A stretch of DNA of 64,000 bases from Aliidiomarina soli. GTDB taxonomy: Bacteria > Pseudomonadota > Gammaproteobacteria > Enterobacterales > Alteromonadaceae. The notes beneath the pieces were generated by a model. The model saw only the letters and a program-made list of their open reading frames with translations, was not told the DNA's origin and made no database searches. Of the stretch, positions 54,220 to 64,000 are shown one piece after another (positions within the stretch are counted from its first letter, which is position 1; each line of letters opens with the position of its first letter). The stretch lies in NCBI RefSeq assembly GCF_003986975.1, contig NZ_PIPO01000001.1, forward strand, positions 558,001 through 622,000. The letters run 5' to 3'. Both the position numbers and the translations under genes were made by a program.

Positions 54220-55266
54220 ATGTCAGTATTTGATCATCAGGAATTTGATAATCACGAAGAAGTGGTTTTTTGCCACGACGAAGCGACCGGTCTCAAAGCC
54301 ATTATCGCGGTACACGACACAACTATGGGTCCGTCCTTAGGTGGCACCCGGATGTGGAATTATGCATCGTCTGACGAAGCCTTAACCGACGTATTGCGTT
54401 TGTCACGCGGGATGACTTACAAAAGCGCCCTCGCCGGCCTGCCGTTAGGCGGCGGTAAAGCAGTTATCATCGGGGACGCGAAAACCGACAAGTCACCTGA
54501 ACTGTTTAAAGCCTATGGTCGTTTTGTTGACTCATTGAGCGGCAAATATATCACTGCGGAAGACGTTAATATTCGCACCAGCGATATTGAGCTGGTCGCT
54601 ACCCAAACTCGCTATGTCGCAGGTACCGAAGGCAAAGCTGGCGATCCGTCGCCACATACCGCGCTGGGAAGCTACCTAGGCCTGAAAGCGGCAGCCAAGC
54701 ATCAGTTTGGCAGTGATGACATCAAAGGTCTTAAGATTGCGATCCAGGGCCTTGGTGCTGTGGGTTACGATTTTGCCAAGTACCTGGCTAAAGACGGCGC
54801 TATCCTGACTGTCTGTGACGTCAATCAGGACGCTGTTGATCGCGCAGTAAAAGAGCTTGGCGCTACTGCTGTTGGCATCGATGAAATCTACGATGTTGAG
54901 ATGGACATCTATGCCCCTTGTGCGCTGGGTGCGACCATTAATGACGGCACCTTAAAGCGGATCAAAGCGAAAGTTATCGCTGGTAGTGCAAATAACCAGC
55001 TGGCGACCCCTGCACATGACCGTATCGTAAAAGATATGGGTATTTTGTACGCGCCTGACTACGTTATTAATGCGGGTGGTGTTATTCACGTCTGTTCAGA
55101 AGCCGCTGCGATGACCACCGAAGATACCGCTGCCCGTGTGCGTGCTATTTATGACACGCTGGACCGTATCTTCAGCCGGGCTAAAGCGGAAGACCGCCCT
55201 ACCGGTGAAATTGCGGATGAAATGGCGCGGGAAATCCTCAAAGCCAAGGCTGCTAGCCGCGGTTAA
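54220..55266 (+). CDS. ldh: Leucine (branched-chain amino acid) dehydrogenase
   Basis: This 348-residue Glu/Leu/Phe/Val dehydrogenase-family enzyme has catalytic lysines at about residues 68 (TYKSALAGLP) and 80 (GGGKAVI), and a Rossmann motif IQGLGAVGYDFA (about 175-186). SANNQL lies near 262 and INAGGVI near 285. Length and motifs fit leucine dehydrogenase, which deaminates leucine, valine and isoleucine to 2-oxo acids with NAD+. It could equally be named bcd or val dehydrogenase. It is followed by a strong terminator. Confidence 0.9.
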   Translation: MSVFDHQEFDNHEEVVFCHDEATGLKAIIAVHDTTMGPSLGGTRMWNYASSDEALTDVLRLSRGMTYKSALAGLPLGGGKAVIIGDAKTDKSPELFKAYGRFVDSLSGKYITAEDVNIRTSDIELVATQTRYVAGTEGKAGDPSPHTALGSYLGLKAAAKHQFGSDDIKGLKIAIQGLGAVGYDFAKYLAKDGAILTVCDVNQDAVDRAVKELGATAVGIDEIYDVEMDIYAPCALGATINDGTLKRIKAKVIAGSANNQLATPAHDRIVKDMGILYAPDYVINAGGVIHVCSEAAAMTTEDTAARVRAIYDTLDRIFSRAKAEDRPTGEIADEMAREILKAKAASRG

Positions 55267-55360: not shown

Positions 55361-58300
55361 CTAACTGAGCACTTGCAGCAAATGTTGCAACGGATGCTGC
55401 AAACGCCGCTGCTCCACTCGCTGAGCCTGACAGCGGCACGAGAAGCCGGTCGCCAGAGGCTTTTCGCTGGATGCCAGCTTAGGCTGCCAGCTCATTGCAT
55501 ACAGCTGTTTACTTTTCGCCTGATGCTCAGCTTCATGGCCATACGTCCCTGCCATACCGCAACATCCCGTTTGCAGTGGACGGCACTCAACACCTACTTT
55601 GGCAAAGATCTGTTGCCAGCTAGCGCCACTCTGCGGCAGTTCCGTCTGTTCCGTACAATGCAGCAATAAGTCCACCGGCTGCTCGTGACTGGCTGGTGCT
55701 GGTACGGGCTTAATAAAATCACGCAGGATGCTCTCATCGACATCCTCCTGCAGCCACTGCTGGACTAACTTAACCTTAAAGTTACCGCGTTCAGCACCAA
55801 GGAACTGTTGATATTCATCGGCGTAACATAACACCGTCGATGCATCGAGACCGACCAGCGGTAAGCCCATGTCGGCCGCTTGCTGCAGCTGCTGCGCCTG
55901 AACCCTGGCAAGCTGGCGGAACTCAGCTAAAAACCCTTTCACATGCGCCGCTTTGCCGTTCGCCCGGTACGGCAGGATCACCGCCTGCACACCAAGGCGT
56001 GCGGCCAATTTGAGCAGATCTTCAACCAGCTCTGCCTCGTAGAACGAGGTAAATGGGTCCTGCACGATACCAACAAAATGAGACTGCTCAGCCTCATTCA
56101 GCGCATTACCCTGGCGTAATTCAAGAAACTGCTGCCAGCTGAGTGCCTTACGATAAGCATCCCGACGGGTCAGTGCCGGCACCGACAAATTGGGGGCATC
56201 AACATAACCCAGCAATTCAGCCGAAACCCAGCGTCCGGGCCGTCCACCCATCAGACTATTTATAAGTCGCGGGTGCGCCGCCATGCGCGGTAGCCAGTGT
56301 TCAATATTCTTGACCAGATAATCTTTCAGCGGCCGTCCATAGCGACTATGGTAATGGGCTAAAAACCGCGCCCTATGACTGGGGATATCAACCTTAACCG
56401 GACACTGTGAGCCACAAGCTTTGCAGGCCAGGCATTCATCCATGCTGGCCTTGACCTCATGATTAAAATCATCTGTCTGTTTGCGGTTACGCCAGCGCTG
56501 CCACCAGGACGCACGCGCCTTGGGTTCAATCCCGGCGTCGAGACCCGCAAGACTTGTCAGGCGCAGCCATTCGCGTAAAAGGCTGGCCCTGCCTTTCGGC
56601 GAGTAGCGGCGATCACCCGTGACGCGGTAGGACGGACACATTGGGGTATCTTTGTCGAAGTTAAAGCACAAGCCATTGCCATTGCAGTCCATTGCTGTTT
56701 GGTAAACGCCCTGGGTAGCCAGCGGGATCTGGCGATCAAACCAGCCTCGTTTGGTGGCATCCACACTGACCAAAGCCTGCTGGCTTTGATACGGCGTGCA
56801 TATCTTACCAGGGTTTAAACGGTTTAATGGGTCGAACACCGCTTTTAGCTTACACAGTTCCTGATACAGCAGCTCACCAAAAAACTCGGGGCCGTATTCT
56901 GAACGGAACCCTTTGCCATGCTCACCCCACATCAGGCCTTTGTATTTCGCTGTCAGCGCAACCACTTGATCGCTAATCGTTCGCACCAGCGCTTCGTCCT
57001 CCGGGTCCTGCATATTTAACGCCGGGCGGACGTGCAAGACCCCGGCATCGACATGGCCAAACATGCCGTAGTTAAGCTGGTGCGCATCGAGTAAGTCGCG
57101 AAATTCGCTGATGTAGTCAGCCAGGTGCTCTGGCGGTACCGCGGTGTCTTCGACAAAGGCGATCGGCTTACGCGCCCCTTTGGTCGCGCCGAGTAAGCCA
57201 ACAGCCTTTTTGCGCATCGCATAAATTCGGCCGATGCTGGCGGGGTCATCGCAAATTTGATACCCGATCACCCCATTTTGCTGGCGTATACTGTCGTCCA
57301 GCATGCTGGTTAAACTGGTTAATTTTTTCTCCAGCGCATACTCAGAGGTAGCGGTGAATTCGACCATATTGATGCCATCCATTGGCGTCGCTGAATCACT
57401 TTCCAGCATGTCTTTAACCCCATGCCAGACAATGTCATTGCGGGCCAGGTCAAGCACCTTGCTGTCAATAGTTTCGACTGACGTGGCTTGCGCTTCGACC
57501 AACGCTGGTGCATGGCGCAAGGCCGACTGAAAACTGCTGTAGGTGACGTTGACCAGGACTTTATGCCGTGGAATGCGGGTGATATTAAGTTTGGCCTCAG
57601 TGACCACCGCCAGCGTTCCTTCCGAACCTGCAATCAGCCGACTGAGATCCACCTGTTCACTGTCTGCGTCATAGGCATGCTTGAGGTCATAGCCAGTGAG
57701 GAAACGGTTGAGTGGCGGGAAGCGTTTTACCACTTCACCGCGCAAATCGACACAGCTTTTAATCACCTGCTGGTAGATGCCACCTTCAGGTGTGGCCAGT
57801 TGTGCCAGCTCCCGAGCCTGCTTCAGCGGAATCGGACGGGTGGTTAAGCGTGTACCATGCAGCGTGTAGCTGGCCAGTTCAAGAATATGGTCGCTGGTCT
57901 TACCGTATACCAGAGAGCCCTGCCCTGAGGCATCGGTGTTGATCATGCCCCCCAATGTACAACGGTTGCTGGTCGAGGTGTCTGGGGCAAAAAAGAAACC
58001 GTGGGGCGCGAGTGCCTTATTCAGGGCATCTTTGACCAGGCCACTTTCAACACGCACCCAGCCTTCTTCAATATTGATTTCAAGAACCCGGGTCAGATAG
58101 CGGCTCAAATCAAGCACCAGCCAGCTGGTGAGCGACTGTCCATTGGTGCCAGTCCCACCGCCGCGCGGGGAGAACTGAATCTGCTGGTGAGCGGCCTGCG
58201 CCGCTAGCGCCATCACAATGCCAACATCCTCCTGGGTACGCGGGTAAACCACCCCCTGCGGAAGCTGCTGATAAATACTATTATCTGTTGATGCAATCAG

Positions 58301-58417
58301 ACGACCAGCGTATGTGAGGTCAATATCGCCACTGAACGCTGTGCGTTCCAGGGCTTGAATAAAGGCCTCATACTCAGGTTGCAGGGTTTGCTCAGGCGAT
58401 AAAGTTGGCAGTATCAA
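55361..58417 (-). CDS. ydiJ: YdiJ-type FAD and [Fe-S] dehydrogenase (D-2-hydroxyglutarate dehydrogenase family)
   Basis: This 1018-residue protein fuses an N-terminal FAD-binding PCMH oxidase (about residues 1-560, with the GTGTNGQSLTSWLVLDLSR dinucleotide segment) to a C-terminal Fe-S part with ferredoxin-like CLACKACGSQCPVKVDIP (about 665-685). A Cys-rich CCGMAGTYGHEAE motif (about 955-967) resembles glycolate-oxidase subunit GlpC. E. coli YdiJ is a D-2-hydroxyglutarate dehydrogenase. Start TTG 58417, with AAGGA about 11 nt upstream. Preceded by a ppsA terminator. Confidence 0.9.
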   Translation of the reverse strand: MILPTLSPEQTLQPEYEAFIQALERTAFSGDIDLTYAGRLIASTDNSIYQQLPQGVVYPRTQEDVGIVMALAAQAAHQQIQFSPRGGGTGTNGQSLTSWLVLDLSRYLTRVLEINIEEGWVRVESGLVKDALNKALAPHGFFFAPDTSTSNRCTLGGMINTDASGQGSLVYGKTSDHILELASYTLHGTRLTTRPIPLKQARELAQLATPEGGIYQQVIKSCVDLRGEVVKRFPPLNRFLTGYDLKHAYDADSEQVDLSRLIAGSEGTLAVVTEAKLNITRIPRHKVLVNVTYSSFQSALRHAPALVEAQATSVETIDSKVLDLARNDIVWHGVKDMLESDSATPMDGINMVEFTATSEYALEKKLTSLTSMLDDSIRQQNGVIGYQICDDPASIGRIYAMRKKAVGLLGATKGARKPIAFVEDTAVPPEHLADYISEFRDLLDAHQLNYGMFGHVDAGVLHVRPALNMQDPEDEALVRTISDQVVALTAKYKGLMWGEHGKGFRSEYGPEFFGELLYQELCKLKAVFDPLNRLNPGKICTPYQSQQALVSVDATKRGWFDRQIPLATQGVYQTAMDCNGNGLCFNFDKDTPMCPSYRVTGDRRYSPKGRASLLREWLRLTSLAGLDAGIEPKARASWWQRWRNRKQTDDFNHEVKASMDECLACKACGSQCPVKVDIPSHRARFLAHYHSRYGRPLKDYLVKNIEHWLPRMAAHPRLINSLMGGRPGRWVSAELLGYVDAPNLSVPALTRRDAYRKALSWQQFLELRQGNALNEAEQSHFVGIVQDPFTSFYEAELVEDLLKLAARLGVQAVILPYRANGKAAHVKGFLAEFRQLARVQAQQLQQAADMGLPLVGLDASTVLCYADEYQQFLGAERGNFKVKLVQQWLQEDVDESILRDFIKPVPAPASHEQPVDLLLHCTEQTELPQSGASWQQIFAKVGVECRPLQTGCCGMAGTYGHEAEHQAKSKQLYAMSWQPKLASSEKPLATGFSCRCQAQRVEQRRLQHPLQHLLQVLS

Positions 58418-58458
58418 GATCTCGGGTCCTTTTCTTAAATGTCTCTAAGCGTAAAACA

Positions 58459-58486
58459 AAACAGCCTGGCAAATACCAGGCTGTTT
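58459..58486 (-). terminator. Intrinsic terminator of ppsA
   Basis: AAACAGCCTGG (58459-58469) and CCAGGCTGTTT (58476-58486) form an 11-bp stem. On the minus strand T-rich TGTTTT follows. About 80 bp downstream of the ppsA stop and before ydiJ. Confidence 0.85.
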
Positions 58487-58564
58487 ACTAAATAAGCTTA
58501 ATTTCGATAGTGGTTATCAAAATCCGCCTGATTTGTGCTTGGCATACTGCTGGTAAACCAGCAC

Positions 58565-60958
58565 TTAGGCCTGCTCTTTACCTTGCTCTTTACCCAGCTC
58601 TTTACCCAGGTAAAGCCAGGTATCCAGCACGGTGTCCGGGTTCAGTGATACCGAATCAATGCCCTGCTCGACCAGCCACTTGGCAAAGTCGGGGTGATCG
58701 GACGGGCCCTGGCCGCAAATGCCGACATACTTACCACGTTTTTTCGCGGTCTGTATGGCCATCGATAACAGCGCTTTCACCGCCGGGTCACGTTCTTCGA
58801 ACAGATGCGCGATTAAGCCTGAGTCACGATCCAGCCCTAAGGTTAGCTGAGTAAGGTCGTTTGAACCAATCGAAAAACCATCAAAGATATCGAGGAACTC
58901 ATCGGCCAGCAACGCATTCGATGGCAATTCACACATCATAATCACACGCAGACCATTTTCGCCCTGAACCAGACCGTGCTCAGCCAGGATCTCAATAACC
59001 TGCCGCCCTTCATCCACGGTACGAACGAACGGGATCATAATCTCGACGTTAGTCAGACCCATGCTATTACGCACACGCTTAATTGCTTCACATTCAAGCG
59101 CGAAGCAATCGCGGAAGTCTTTAGAAATGTAACGTGATGCGCCACGGAAGCCGAGCATCGGGTTCTCTTCCTCAGGCTCATACTGACGACCGCCAACCAG
59201 GTTCGCATACTCGTTTGACTTAAAGTCAGACATGCGCACAATGACCCGCTCCGGCGCGAAGGATGCACCAATGGTAGAAATACCTTCAACCAGACGCTGA
59301 ATATAGAATTCAACCGGATCACTGTAGCCCGCCATCATCTTTGTGATCTCAGCCTGCAGTTCGCTGCTTTGCTGATCGAAGTTGAGCAAGGCTTTAGGGT
59401 GAACCCCAATCATTCGGTTGATAATAAACTCAAGACGCGCCAGACCAACCCCGGCGTGCGGCAAACGGGCAAACTCAAAAGCGCGGTCCGGGTTACCCAC
59501 GTTCATCATGATCTTCAGTGGCAGCGCAGGCATCGCACCAACTTCTGACTGAGTCACATCAAACTCAAGCTCGCCGTCATAAATCAGACCGGTGTCACCT
59601 TCAGCACAGGAAACCGTCACCATCTGACCGTCTTTAACTAAGTCAGTCGCATCGCCACACCCAACAACCGCCGGAATACCAAGCTCACGGGCAATAATCG
59701 CCGCGTGGCAGGTACGTCCGCCACGATTGGTCACGATTGCACTCGCCCGCTTCATGATCGGTTCCCAGTCCGGGTCGGTCATATCCGTTACCAGAACGTC
59801 ACCCGGCTGCACCTGATCCATCTCGTCAATTGAACTCAATAAGCGCGCTTTACCACGGCCAATTTTCTGCCCGATCGCGCGGCCACTGGCGACTACCTCT
59901 GATTTACCCTGCAAGGTAAAACGTTCAATCGACTGTGATGACTCGTTGGACCGCACCGTTTCAGGGCGCGCCTGAACAATGTACAGCTTGCCATCGTGAC
60001 CATCTTTGGCCCACTCGATGTCCATCGGGCGGCCATAATGGTTTTCAATGATAACCGCTTGTTTAGCTAACTCTGCGATTTCATCGTCGTTTAATGAGAA
60101 ACGACCACTGCGTTCGGCATCGATGTCCTGAGTTTTGACTTGCTTACCGTGACTGCTGTCATCGGAGTAAACCATTTCAATCTGCTTACTACCTAAGGTA
60201 CGACGAATAACCGATGGCCGTCCGGCCGCTAATGTCGGCTTATGAACAAAGAATTCGTCCGGGTTTACCGCGCCCTGCACCACCATCTCGCCAAGGCCGT
60301 ACGACGAGGTCACGAAGACCACCTGGTCAAAACCTGATTCAGTGTCGATTGAAAACATCACGCCAGAGGCTGCTAAGTCACTGCGTACCATGCGCTGGAT
60401 ACCCGCCGACAGTGCAACACCACGGTGATCGTAGCCCTGGTGAACGCGGTATGAAATAGCGCGGTCATTAAACAATGAGGCAAATACGTGCTTAATAGCT
60501 TCCATCACTGCATCGATGCCCTTCACGTTAAGGAAGGTTTCCTGCTGACCCGCAAACGACGCATCCGGCATGTCTTCAGCAGTAGCTGAACTGCGCACAG
60601 CGAAGCTGGCGTCTGCATTGTCGGTGGTGAGTTCGTTGTAGGCGGTGCGGATGGCTTGGTCTAAATTGGCTTGGAAGGGGGTATCAATAATCCACTGACG
60701 GATTTGTTTGCCAACTTCTGCGAGTTTTTTTACGTCATTGACGTCAAGGGTGTCGAGGAGTTGGTGAATCTTTTCGTTGATCCCGCTTTGTTCTAAAAAC
60801 TCGTTAAACGCGTCGGCAGTGGTAGCAAAGCCCCCGGGAACCGTTACGCCAGCCCCTGCCAGGTTGCTGATCATTTCCCCGAGAGAGGCATTTTTGCCCC
60901 CTACGCGGCCGACATCGTTCATACCCAGCTGCTGGTACCAAAGCACGTAATCTTGCAC
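58565..60958 (-). CDS. ppsA: Phosphoenolpyruvate synthase
   Basis: This 797-residue enzyme converts pyruvate and ATP to PEP, AMP and phosphate, allowing gluconeogenesis from amino acids. Order: N-terminal ATP-binding domain (about 1-340), the phosphohistidine swivel with [15 protein letters not shown] (His at about residue 425), and a C-terminal TIM-barrel pyruvate domain. Start GTG 60958 with AAGGA upstream. The C-terminus ends in a repeat ([12 protein letters not shown]) encoded by a 12-bp tandem repeat. Divergent from ppsR, its regulator. Confidence 0.97.
58571..58606. repeat. 12-bp tandem repeat encoding the PpsA C-terminus
   Basis: Three copies of a 12-bp unit with the constant core GCTCTTTACC begin at 58573, 58585 and 58597. 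Read on the minus strand they encode [12 protein letters not shown]. Such a unit in a terminal tail may vary by slippage between strains without breaking frame. Confidence 0.85.
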
Positions 60959-61067
60959 AATACAGTCCTTATTGAGATTTAATGTATGCGTGGTGAGTGG
61001 CGGCTATTTTACACGGTGTTCACCAACAAGTTAATATCTGTGTCACATTGACTAAGGATTTATACCC

Positions 61068-61874
61068 ATGCGTACTGCGTTTTACATTTCTGATGGCACT
61101 GCACTCACCTCTGAAGCCTTTGGCCACGCCATGCTGTCGCTCTTTCCGATGAAATTCAAACACCGAACTTTGCCGTTTATCGATAGCGCAGAAAAAGCTA
61201 CCCGTTGCTGCCAGCAAATCAACGCCGCAGCCAGTGAAGATGGCGAAAAACCGTTAATTTTCCACACCTTCGTCAACACTGAAATCAAACGCATCATCAA
61301 TCAGAGCCAGGGCATAAGCTATGACTTTCTTGATCATTACGTGGAGCCGATGGAAGCTGAGCTGGGTATCAAAGCGCAGCCGAAAACCAACCGCACTCAT
61401 GGTATTCATCAAGACTATAACTTTCGTATCGACGCGGTAAATTACACCCTGGACAATGACGATGGGGTCAGCACCAAAGAATATGGTCAGGCCGATATTA
61501 TTCTGATTGGCGCCTCCCGCACCGGTAAAACCCCAACCTGCCTGTACCTGGCGTTGCAATACGGGATCAAAGCGGCGAACTATCCGATTACCGAGGACGA
61601 CCTGGATAACCTGCAGCTCAGTTATGATCTGAAAATGCATCGTCACAAGCTATTCGGTCTTACCATCGACGTCGAGCGATTACAGTCAATCCGGCAGGAA
61701 CGGCGCGCCAATAGTCGTTATGCCTCGCTTGAACAGTGTCAGTTAGAAATTAATCAAATTGAGCATTTATTCAGTCAGGAAGCGATTCCGTTTCTTAACT
61801 CAACCCATGCCTCAGTCGAAGAGCTTGCAGCCAAAATCATGGATGAAGCGAAGCTGGAGCGCCACAGATACTAA
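61068..61874 (+). CDS. ppsR: PEP synthase regulatory protein (kinase/pyrophosphorylase)
   Basis: This 268-residue DUF299-family protein has a P-loop-like GASRTGKT (residues 148-155). It phosphorylates PpsA with ADP to inactivate it, and dephosphorylates it with phosphate to reactivate it. Divergent from ppsA across 109 bp, as in E. coli (ppsA-ydiA). RBS AAGGA. Its end is closed by a strong terminator shared with the convergent DUF1338 gene. Confidence 0.95.
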
Positions 61875-61903
61875 GCTTTCCGACCCCATGGGTCGCAACA
61901 ACA

Positions 61904-61934
61904 AAAAACGCTGGCGACATGCCAGCGTTTTTTT
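61904..61934. terminator. Bidirectional terminator after ppsR
   Basis: AAAAACGCTGGC (61904-61915) and GCCAGCGTTTTT (61921-61932) form a 12-bp stem with loop GACAT, plus further A and T flanks. It can terminate both ppsR and the convergent DUF1338/aroG unit. Confidence 0.92.
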
Positions 61935-61980
61935 GATGTAAGCGACTATTGCAGTGCTTGCGTCTCAGCTCGCCTTTGGC

Positions 61981-62781
61981 CTAGCCTTTGGCGTTAGTGC
62001 TTTCAAAGATCTTATCGGCCGAGGCAGCGACAAAGCCAGTATAGAGTTCACCGTCCGCCATTTCGTAACGTTTAGCAAACTCATAAAAACAGCTTGGGAT
62101 CTCAGCAACTTTATCCGCAAAGGACACCGGAATACGGTCAGCCATGGTCGACGACTGCTCAAGATAGACCTCTGGATTTCCTTTGATCTCGCCGCCCGCA
62201 CTATTAAGGGTAAAGCCTTCCTCTTTCAGCTTCGCATTCACCGCCTCAATATCGGTATAACCAGGTAAACGATTAATGCTAACGGTAAAGTGGTTGGCAC
62301 AAAAACCGAACGCGCTCATCCACGCGGCGTACTCACTCTCTTCCAGTAATTTTTCATACTGGGCATGAGTCACCTGCCAATGCGTTCCGGAATACAGGAA
62401 TTCCGGCTGTTCAACCACTGAGGGGTCAATAGACGCCACCATATCGGCGATCACCTGTTGCGTGTCCTCAGAAAACTCTTCTACCAGCAACTCACTGATG
62501 AAAATCTTGGGTAAGTCTTTGTTGGCATGTTCATAGTGCTTCGCACGCAGCTTTTTGGCTTCGAAATGGTAATCGCCATTTGCAAAGTAGCCCATGTTTT
62601 CAAACAGTTCAGCCAGTTTTTCCAAACGCACCGGGGCTATGTTAAAGGTTCTGAAAGCCACGTGATCGTTGATGATCTCAGCACCGCCGCCTAACACCTG
62701 ATGGACCTTTTCGGCACTCGGTGTTTTGCCAATATAGTCTTGCCATAAGTTAGCGAAAAACTGCTCAGCGTCTTGCGACAT
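61981..62781 (-). CDS. DUF1338 family metal-dependent enzyme (HglS-like)
   Basis: This 266-residue protein, starting at ATG 62781 (AAGGA upstream; an in-frame ATG at 62841 adds 20 unlikely residues), belongs to the DUF1338 family. Conserved features are DHVAFRTF with His40 and Arg44, His164 in ANHFTVSIN, and Glu208 in YLEQSSTMAD. These correspond to the Fe-binding His, His, Glu and substrate Arg of HglS (2-oxoadipate dioxygenase/decarboxylase), which makes D-2-hydroxyglutarate. This short form is shorter than HglS (about 460 residues), so the reaction is inferred. Probably co-transcribed with the DAHP synthase gene 66 nt upstream. Confidence 0.85.
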   Translation of the reverse strand: MSQDAEQFFANLWQDYIGKTPSAEKVHQVLGGGAEIINDHVAFRTFNIAPVRLEKLAELFENMGYFANGDYHFEAKKLRAKHYEHANKDLPKIFISELLVEEFSEDTQQVIADMVASIDPSVVEQPEFLYSGTHWQVTHAQYEKLLEESEYAAWMSAFGFCANHFTVSINRLPGYTDIEAVNAKLKEEGFTLNSAGGEIKGNPEVYLEQSSTMADRIPVSFADKVAEIPSCFYEFAKRYEMADGELYTGFVAASADKIFESTNAKG

Positions 62782-62847
62782 GTTAATAATTCCTTGTTCT
62801 GTATGGGAAGCGGTCGGCGTTAACGCCGTACCTGCTTTCACTGCAAA

Positions 62848-64000
62848 TTAAACGCGGCCATTGCGTGCATCACGCAGGGTGTCCGCAATAAGAAACGCCA
62901 GTTCCAGTACCTGGTCGCCGTTGAGACGGGGATCACACTGGGTTTTATAGCGTTTAGCCAGGTCAGATTCACTGATTTGATACGCACCGCCTGTGCACTC
63001 AGTCACGTCCTGCCCGGTCATTTCTAAATGTATACCACCAGCATAGCTGTTTTCGGCTTGATGCACCGCAAAGAACTGCTTTAACTCACGAATGATTGCG
63101 TCAAAATTGCGCGTTTTAAGGCCGTTCTCGGCCTTCACCGTGTTGCCATGCATAGGATCACTGGACCACACCACCTGTCTGCCTTCGCGTTGTACGCGGC
63201 GGATTAGGGCCGGTAGTCGCTCACCCAGCGCATCAGCGCCCATCCGGGTAATCAGTGTGATCCGTCCGGGGACGTTGCCTGGATTGAGTACATCCAGCAG
63301 CTTCATCAGCTCATCGGGCTCCATGGTTGGCCCGATCTTAACCCCAACCGGGTTGTGAATGCCACGAAAGAACTCAATATGCGCATGATCAAGCTGTCGT
63401 GTTCGCTCACCGATCCACAGCATATGCGCAGAACAGTCGTAGGGTAACCCGGTCAGCGTATCGATACGGGTCAATGCTTCTTCATAAGGCAACAATAAGG
63501 CTTCATGCGAGGTAAATAACTCGGTCTCATGAATGGTCGGATGGCTCTGCGCATCGATGCCCAGCACTTCCATAAAATGTAAGGTTTCAGAAATCTGCTC
63601 AGCGACCTGACGGTACTTGTCTTTTAACGGGTTCGCCGCAATAAAACTCATATTCCATTTATGAACCTTATGCAGGTCGGCCAGCCCGCCCTGAGCAAAC
63701 GCACGCAGTAAGTTGAGTGTTGCCGCACTTTGGTTGTAGGCCGTTAGCATACGCTCCGGCTGCGGCTCGCGGGCCTCCGGGGTAAAGTCAATGCCATTGA
63801 TAATGTCGCCGCGATAGCTTGGCAGGGTCACACCGTCAATGGTTTCCATATCACTGGAACGAGGCTTGGCATATTGCCCTGCCATCCGCGCCACTTTGGT
63901 CACCGGGCATGACCCGGCAAAGGTCAGTACCACAGCCATCTGCAGCATGACTTTAAAGGTGTCACGAATTTTCGGCGCATTGAAGTCGGTAAACGACTCA
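62848..64000 (-). CDS. aroG: Class II 3-deoxy-7-phosphoheptulonate (DAHP) synthase, 5' end cut
   Basis: The open frame continues past the window end without a start, so the N-terminus (the first roughly 70 residues, with the RGGDCAE-type motif) is missing. The visible part shows [21 protein letters not shown]-like [28 protein letters not shown] and the metal/substrate motifs of plant-like (class II) DAHP synthases, such as [12 protein letters not shown] and DPMHGNT. It catalyses the first step of the shikimate pathway (PEP plus erythrose-4-phosphate). The symbol is tentative. It lies on the minus strand before the DUF1338 gene. Confidence 0.9.

Follow-up and report, generated by a model that had tools for sequence, protein, structure and literature searches.

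Enzymes of the PF07063 (DUF1338) family link 2-oxoadipate to D-2-hydroxyglutarate: the excerpted text of PMC7286885 describes assays of HglS, YdcJ and two plant proteins, and members that bear the substrate arginine are predicted there to catalyse this reaction too. The substrate panel in those excerpts was run on HglS, a long-form protein, which was inactive on 2-oxoglutarate. For the next enzyme, the dehydrogenase YdiJ, the excerpts of PMC9504171 report strict specificity for D-2-hydroxyglutarate in E. coli and Pantoea, and they name SerA as a producer of this compound. Here, we analyzed a window of 64,000 nucleotides from Aliidiomarina soli (contig NZ_PIPO01000001.1, positions 558,001 to 622,000 of the forward strand; "the window" designates this whole stretch), in which a short DUF1338 gene lies near ydiJ. 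A study of lysine breakdown in Pseudomonas putida has reportedly tied HglS to a YdiJ-like enzyme. The enzyme pair is of a known kind; what would be new, as a variation on lysine catabolism, is the route that we propose for its supply.

In our proposal, the short HglS and YdiJ of the window would be fed with 2-oxoadipate obtained from lysine through AstA, AstC, AstD and AstE, enzymes of the arginine succinyltransferase (AST) pathway, the DUF1338 gene having been relocated from the ast operon; we regard this reading as evenly poised between right and wrong. AstA would convert lysine to N2-succinyl-lysine, AstC would turn the latter into N2-succinyl-2-aminoadipate semialdehyde and AstD would yield N2-succinyl-2-aminoadipate, from which AstE would remove the succinyl group to give 2-aminoadipate. 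A putative aminotransferase would then produce 2-oxoadipate, to be converted by DUF1338, with Fe(II) and O2, to D-2-hydroxyglutarate and by YdiJ to 2-oxoglutarate. Free 2-aminoadipate semialdehyde cyclises, and in arginine breakdown a succinyl group prevents glutamate semialdehyde from doing so. As an N2-acyl group would block the cyclisation of 2-aminoadipate semialdehyde, lysine dehydrogenase (LysDH) and piperideine-6-carboxylate dehydrogenase (P6CDH) would be dispensable. We infer the steps up to 2-oxoadipate, the substrates of the Ast enzymes and the flow of lysine from gene context, and the DUF1338 reaction is a prediction as well; what the analysis itself shows are the protein families, residues, fold and gene contexts, the mutual exclusion of ast linkage and P6CDH, and the signs of relocation. 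The two genes of the window on which the proposal centers are:

55361 to 58417, minus strand: YdiJ, D-2-hydroxyglutarate dehydrogenase, 1018 amino acids (NF049975, 1490.4 bits, cut-off 1350)
61981 to 62781, minus strand: short HGLS/DUF1338 protein, 266 amino acids (PF07063, 118.8 bits, cut-off 25)

The DUF1338 gene starts with the ATG at 62781; a GTG upstream, at 62841, would give 286 amino acids. None of the NCBIfam models matches the protein at E 0.001. Its closest solved relative is PDB 3lho from Shewanella frigidimarina (E 1.4e-106), named only as a putative hydrolase, and rice FLO7 comes next (6w1k, E 2.2e-36). The initial annotation of this locus had stated that the short protein keeps the expected His, Arg, His and Glu, and this is what we observe: H40, R44, H164 and E234 (numbering starts at the ATG) do not vary across 13 aligned sequences from different genomic contexts, nor across 24 closer homologues. 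According to the FLO7 alignment and the residue list in the excerpts of PMC7286885, these residues fall on the catalytic positions of the family and correspond to the metal ligands and to the arginine that grips the distal carboxylate of 2-oxoadipate. An AlphaFold2 model built with the 24 homologues has a mean pLDDT of 86.0, with low values for the last 15 residues, and a Foldseek search with this model retrieves 3lho (TMq 0.91), 6w1k (0.86-0.87) and HglS itself (6w1h, 0.65). Family, residues and fold make it likely that the window protein is a short HglS that carries out the Fe(II)/O2-dependent conversion of 2-oxoadipate to D-2-hydroxyglutarate, the reaction put forward at the outset. The long HglS was set aside as a model for the short clade, as it is a separate, longer form. 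A divergent DUF1338 protein of 309 amino acids (L230:6514-7443), from family f55 (f1, f2 and so on are anonymous family labels within the genome sample), matches the window protein at 25%; read by eye, its substrate-arginine position is apparently not arginine, and its substrate may differ.

The genomic context of DUF1338 was surveyed in an order sample of 148 genomes, for which all families were tested, and in a class-wide draw of 276 genomes, for PF07063 only. PF07063 is present in 94 of the 148 order genomes, as the full-length form in 5 and as shorter forms in 89. Non-full-length here means a match that does not cover the whole profile, which includes two longer, divergent copies (G014 and G059), and a copy is termed ast-linked when it lies downstream of astA, on the same strand and within 4.5 kb. 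Counts of ast linkage, P6CDH exclusion, YdiJ co-presence and AstE-ydiJ pairing were compiled by hand from the search tables. With these definitions, DUF1338 is ast-linked in 65 of the 89 order genomes with a non-full-length form (68 of 92 copies). Among 80 fetched DUF1338 loci, 42 display the layout of the window, aroF-DUF1338-ppsR-ppsA-ydiJ-LeuDH, and belong to Idiomarinaceae and a few metagenome-assembled genomes. In all of the other 38, astA lies upstream of DUF1338 within 6 kb, in the order astC-astA-astD-DUF1338 (18 loci), astC-astA-DUF1338 (16) or astA-DUF1338 (4).

Within the loci inspected, the ast operons with DUF1338 downstream contain no astB or astE; in G083, an astA-astD-astB-astE cluster exists in addition to a separate astC-astA-DUF1338. 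In the AstA tree, which has long branches, the AstA proteins of DUF1338 operons form a group of 63 rows (support 99/92) that includes no AstA from astB operons, save one mislabelled row (L075, tagged 'B' because its locus has a second AstA with AstB). Two AstA matches occur in ten linked genomes, with DUF1338 behind each of them in G089, G121 and G133. In 25 of the 80 loci (L031-L110), the ast-DUF1338 operon is accompanied by a divergent gene that looks AsnC/Lrp-like; the ligand of this regulator, lysine or arginine, could reveal the role of the operon.

When the ast linkage is compared with the occurrence of P6CDH, the two turn out to be mutually exclusive contexts of DUF1338 among the relatives. 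P6CDH exceeds its cut-off in none of the 65 ast-linked genomes; among the 24 whose non-full-length DUF1338 is not linked, 20 have it over the cut-off. The four unlinked genomes without it are the present one, G023 (DUF1338 divergent beside ast), G061 (contig edge, astD adjacent) and G127 (60% complete). The genome-level p of 2.7e-16 overstates independence; at the family level, where none of the 10 ast-linked families is among the 4 with P6CDH and f23 has neither, the value is 1 in 1001. The presence of DUF1338 alone is not tied to P6CDH (20/89 versus 6/59 genomes, p 0.08), the six being genomes with P6CDH but no non-full-length DUF1338.

The other context brings DUF1338 next to lysine genes. 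A LysDH-like protein is matched with E < 1e-80 in 12 of the 148 order genomes (22 have any match), and in all 12 DUF1338 is located 0.1-1.2 kb away and P6CDH is over its cut-off, adjacent in 10. By family, DUF1338 stands next to LysDH and P6CDH genes in f2, f17 and f72; in f14, its neighbour is the LysDH-like gene. The P6CDH proteins examined in f2 and f17 score 748.9 and 768.2 bits, and the class-wide draw contains LysDH-P6CDH-DUF1338 in three f72 genomes, with 781.1 bits for the one P6CDH checked. In two of the 12, G014 and G059 (L145 and L210), the LysDH-adjacent DUF1338 is longer and divergent and P6CDH lies elsewhere; the divergent copies of L145 and L210 sit on a long tree branch, that of L210 matching at 28%. 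In f7, P6CDH has a distant LysDH-like gene adjoining it, and DUF1338 is found elsewhere (L207, L209). G118 carries a transposase-like gene between DUF1338 and LysDH, and L141:10815-11558 encodes an OrfB_IS605/Cas12f1-like TNB-domain protein between DUF1338 and the LysDH-like gene. The best solved match of the LysDH-like protein is the uncharacterised PH1688; its label is our assumption from family and context.

The initial annotation had named lysine-to-2-oxoadipate genes as its own check, and the searches for LysDH-like, P6CDH and class-III aminotransferase genes in the A. soli genome (G000) came out negative. A LysDH-like protein gives no match at E 0.001 with one query, and the best match to the P6CDH model NF050084 reaches 272.9 bits, below the cut-off of 730. 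No spare lysine 6-aminotransferase candidate was found among the three class-III aminotransferases, which are AstC, an unnamed one and one in the bio gene region that we presume, from its place, to be of the BioA type. Five proteins match the saccharopine-dehydrogenase domain, of which only the best was named (L138:4933-7307, contig C5). A lysine route through this protein was rejected, its only NCBIfam match being carboxynorspermidine synthase, at 429.9 bits against 800; a decarboxylase-like gene follows it, and polyamine synthesis is the likely role of the protein. These negatives also bear on an alternative in which the window protein is an ordinary HglS member supplied by a known lysine route that was missed in this genome. 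Some room for such an oversight exists: the assembly consists of 11 contigs at 99.68% completeness, homology was judged at set cut-offs only, and pipecolate oxidase, lysine racemase and class-I aminotransferases lay outside the search. To our knowledge, however, the known routes to 2-aminoadipate all need 2-aminoadipate semialdehyde dehydrogenase (AASADH) or P6CDH, and we consider this alternative very improbable. The ast operon is a better candidate source of 2-oxoadipate than the known lysine genes tested here. Of the 2-hydroxyglutarate link as first proposed, the enzyme chemistry stands as likely, together with the placement of the family beside LysDH-like and P6CDH genes elsewhere; gene proximity does not support it as stated, co-presence is weak evidence for it, and the lysine genes tested were not found.

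In this genome, AstA, AstC and AstD are over their NCBIfam cut-offs, AstB is matched by PF04996, and AstE by the PF04952 domain and similarity only. Arginine breakdown by AST needs AstB, which is over its cut-off in 74 of the 148 order genomes. No AstB match is found in 16 ast-linked genomes, 13 of them at least 90% complete, which argues that the ast operon is not only for arginine; 14 of these 16 have an AstE-type domain match, the domain also covering shorter relatives. The AstB-less linked genomes fit ornithine or lysine as the ast substrate. For the AstC step, the excerpts of PMC9309667 provide a precedent, as the related ArgD of E. coli accepts N-succinyl-diaminopimelate as an additional substrate and ornithine is among the substrates of AstC.

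Such breadth within the AstC family, and the presence of AstC in 34 of the 38 ast-linked loci, would also suit a scheme in which DUF1338 uses 2-oxoadipate but succinylation plays no part: AstC and AstD would take free lysine and 2-aminoadipate semialdehyde directly, and the link would run through this broad aminotransferase and dehydrogenase rather than through AstA. Yet astA is the constant neighbour of DUF1338, standing alone in 4 of the 38 loci while 20 are without astD, and a free semialdehyde would call for P6CDH, which no linked genome has over the cut-off. We hold this scheme to be distinctly improbable. A different possibility is that 2-oxoadipate is the substrate of the LysDH-linked copies only, and that those linked to ast act on some other dicarboxylic 2-oxo acid from the breakdown of arginine or ornithine. 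This would agree with the annotation of the Ast enzymes for arginine and with the occurrence of AstB in 49 of the 65 linked genomes, but the specificity arginine and the metal set are identical in the ast-linked, LysDH-linked and Idiomarinaceae copies of the 13-sequence alignment, and 16 linked genomes have no AstB match. From the breakdown of arginine and ornithine, no 2-oxo acid bearing a distal carboxylate is known to us other than 2-oxoglutarate. On this last compound HglS is inactive in the excerpts of PMC7286885, although the panel concerned is that of the long form. An operon from another order (L225:5520-10384 and upstream, G170) also speaks against a different acid: astC-astA-astD-DUF1338 is followed there by a gene for a D-2-hydroxyglutarate dehydrogenase-like FAD protein, with an Lrp-like gene beside astC. 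The best solved matches of this protein of 468 residues are 3pm9 (E 2.6e-81) and, at 8.1e-75, the human D-2-hydroxyglutarate dehydrogenase; lactate and glycolate enzymes trail at 4.9e-54 and weaker, and both NCBIfam matches are below cut-off. Overall, a different acid seems unlikely to us.

Several observations weigh against the succinyl-lysine proposal. The scores of AstA, AstC and AstD in this genome are those of ordinary arginine enzymes and AstB is present, so its own ast operon can serve arginine alone; AstB is likewise found in the 49 linked genomes mentioned above, to which the present one does not belong. AstD is absent from the cluster in 20 of the 38 ast loci (the 16 with astC-astA and the 4 with astA alone) and would therefore have to come from elsewhere, which was checked in G079 and G083 only. 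One AstA has no DUF1338 behind it in 7 of the 10 linked genomes with two AstA matches, and in G023 DUF1338 is divergent from an ast operon with astB. Genomes of the same family are not independent. In the class-wide draw, PF07063 occurs in 22 of the 276 genomes: 2 belong to this order, and of the rest 10 have the full form and 10 a short one; the ten short-form genomes outside the order comprise 3 LysDH-P6CDH-linked, 1 ast-linked and 6 with neither context, 3 of these six context-free copies being the divergent f55 form. AstE is not beside ydiJ in 58 of the 70 genomes with an AstE-type match and YdiJ over its cut-off, this one included. Neither an assay of the short DUF1338 clade nor growth or tracer data for lysine were found in the literature.

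The remaining part of the proposal concerns the position of DUF1338 in the window, where the surrounding genes are:

54220 to 55266, plus strand: Glu/Leu/Phe/Val dehydrogenase-like gene near ydiJ, its place in the route only putative (PF02812/PF00208)
58565 to 60958, minus strand: ppsA, phosphoenolpyruvate synthase (TIGR01418, 1244.3 bits, cut-off 739.75)
61068 to 61874, plus strand: ppsR, regulator of phosphoenolpyruvate synthase, between DUF1338 and ppsA (NF049928, 379.9 bits, cut-off 350)
62848 to 63948, minus strand: class II DAHP synthase (aroF-like), upstream of DUF1338 (PF01474, 588.4 bits)

The aroF-like gene has its start outside the window and ends 66 bp before the DUF1338 ATG; the cut open reading frame scores 576 bits with TIGR01358, just below the cut-off of 614.7, over profile positions 84-443 only. 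Recruitment of DUF1338 to aromatic synthesis through the preceding aroF was considered and rejected, as, among the 80 loci, aroF precedes DUF1338 in no layout but the Idiomarinaceae-type one. The protein encoded at 54220-55266 is Leu/Phe/Trp dehydrogenase-like, with tryptophan dehydrogenase ScyB as its best NCBIfam match (401.9 bits, below the cut-off of 600), and a homologue follows ydiJ in L248, L251 and L259. A scan for promoters and terminators returned counts at chance level.

DUF1338 and ydiJ had been placed within 8 kb of each other, in agreement with the measured span of 7.4 kb. Taken as a pathway link, as it was stated, this proximity is not supported and looks secondary, not ancestral: in 5 of the 10 ydiJ regions of relatives outside f9 and f20 (L248, L251, L252, L257 and L259), ppsA adjoins ydiJ without DUF1338. 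An ancestral operon of DUF1338 and ydiJ was rejected on the same observation. The genome's own ast operon (L137) has on both sides the same flanks as the ast-DUF1338 genes of Thalassotalea, Colwellia and others, one upstream neighbour being only 22-29% identical to its counterparts. The distance from astD to the gene that follows is only 76 bp, so that DUF1338 is missing from this operon, an absence checked in this genome alone among the Idiomarinaceae. In the DUF1338 tree, which places the LysDH-linked rows on long branches, the Idiomarinaceae form a clade of 11 rows including the window protein (support 100/99), and this clade joins the ast-linked homologue of Algicola with a support of 98/79, just below the support bar. 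The simplest account is a move of the gene out of the ast operon and into the ydiJ cluster, supported by synteny for this genome and by the tree for the family; its new place in Idiomarinaceae would be the one between aroF and ppsR, near ydiJ.

Proximity could also be coincidental, with YdiJ serving serine synthesis, where D-2-hydroxyglutarate is a side product of SerA (excerpts of PMC9504171), and DUF1338 having an unrelated job in no shared pathway. The YdiJ of the window matches the equivalog NF049975 over its whole length (positions 2-1017 of 1018). YdiJ is over its cut-off in 75 of the 89 genomes with a non-full-length DUF1338 versus 34 of the 59 without (Fisher p 0.0005, kinship not corrected), and we rejected this co-presence as strong evidence. 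The 34 genomes, the five ppsA-ydiJ regions and family f7, in which 8 of 8 genomes have DUF1338 and no YdiJ over its cut-off, would all agree with a coincidence, but YdiJ would take D-2-hydroxyglutarate from any source, and a random single insertion this close would occur in about 0.5% of cases (a rough estimate, 16 kb of 3.1 Mb). Moreover, of the 70 genomes that have an AstE-type match and YdiJ over its cut-off, 12 carry AstE immediately upstream of ydiJ in the same orientation. All 12 belong to the two families f9 and f20, and all 6 that were fetched confirm the arrangement (L243, L244, L245, L246, L255 and L256); G093 is a near miss, with the genes 6 kb apart. Two of the 9 long-form regions (L240, L241) have the long HglS next to YdiJ-like genes. 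Coincidence appears rather improbable.

Extending the succinyl-lysine proposal beyond this genome, many marine gammaproteobacteria may degrade lysine through AstA, AstC, AstD and AstE, short HglS and a D-2-hydroxyglutarate dehydrogenase, the ast-DUF1338 operon being dual or lysine-specific and mistaken for a pure arginine operon; this generalization falls somewhat short of probable in our view. The open-licence literature searched for DUF1338, hydroxyglutarate synthase, lysine and the arginine succinyltransferase pathway describes no such route. Several bacterial routes of lysine breakdown exist, and none was found assigned in the literature for the many marine gammaproteobacteria without LysDH or P6CDH. 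In the excerpted report on a casamino-acid batch culture of P. haloplanktis TAC125, methionine, histidine, asparagine and tryptophan, but not lysine, are listed as not consumed. If the proposal is true, many operons annotated as 'arginine catabolism' would have to be given another or an additional function, the short DUF1338 clade, with the structural-genomics entry 3lho among its members, would gain a substrate and a pathway, and YdiJ would be needed for more than serine synthesis.

Compared with the known systems, the window protein shares PF07063, the VOC-type fold, the His-His-Glu metal set and the substrate arginine with HglS of Pseudomonas putida and rice FLO7 (excerpts of PMC7286885), and differs from HglS in being a short form of about 267 residues, whereas the solved HglS chain has 464. 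With the LysDH/P6CDH route to 2-aminoadipate, the proposal has the same end product in common, and DUF1338 adjoins the genes of that route in f2, f17 and f72; it departs from it in that this genome has neither a LysDH-like match nor P6CDH over the cut-off, and none of the 65 ast-linked genomes has P6CDH over it either. The AST pathway is represented in this genome by matches to all of AstA-AstE; the operons with DUF1338 downstream differ from it in having no astB or astE in the loci inspected, in the separate grouping of their AstA and in the 16 genomes with no AstB match. Finally, the whole-length equivalog match over the cut-off aligns the window YdiJ with that of E. coli and Pantoea ananatis, and while the excerpts of PMC9504171 derive its substrate from SerA, a second source is proposed here.

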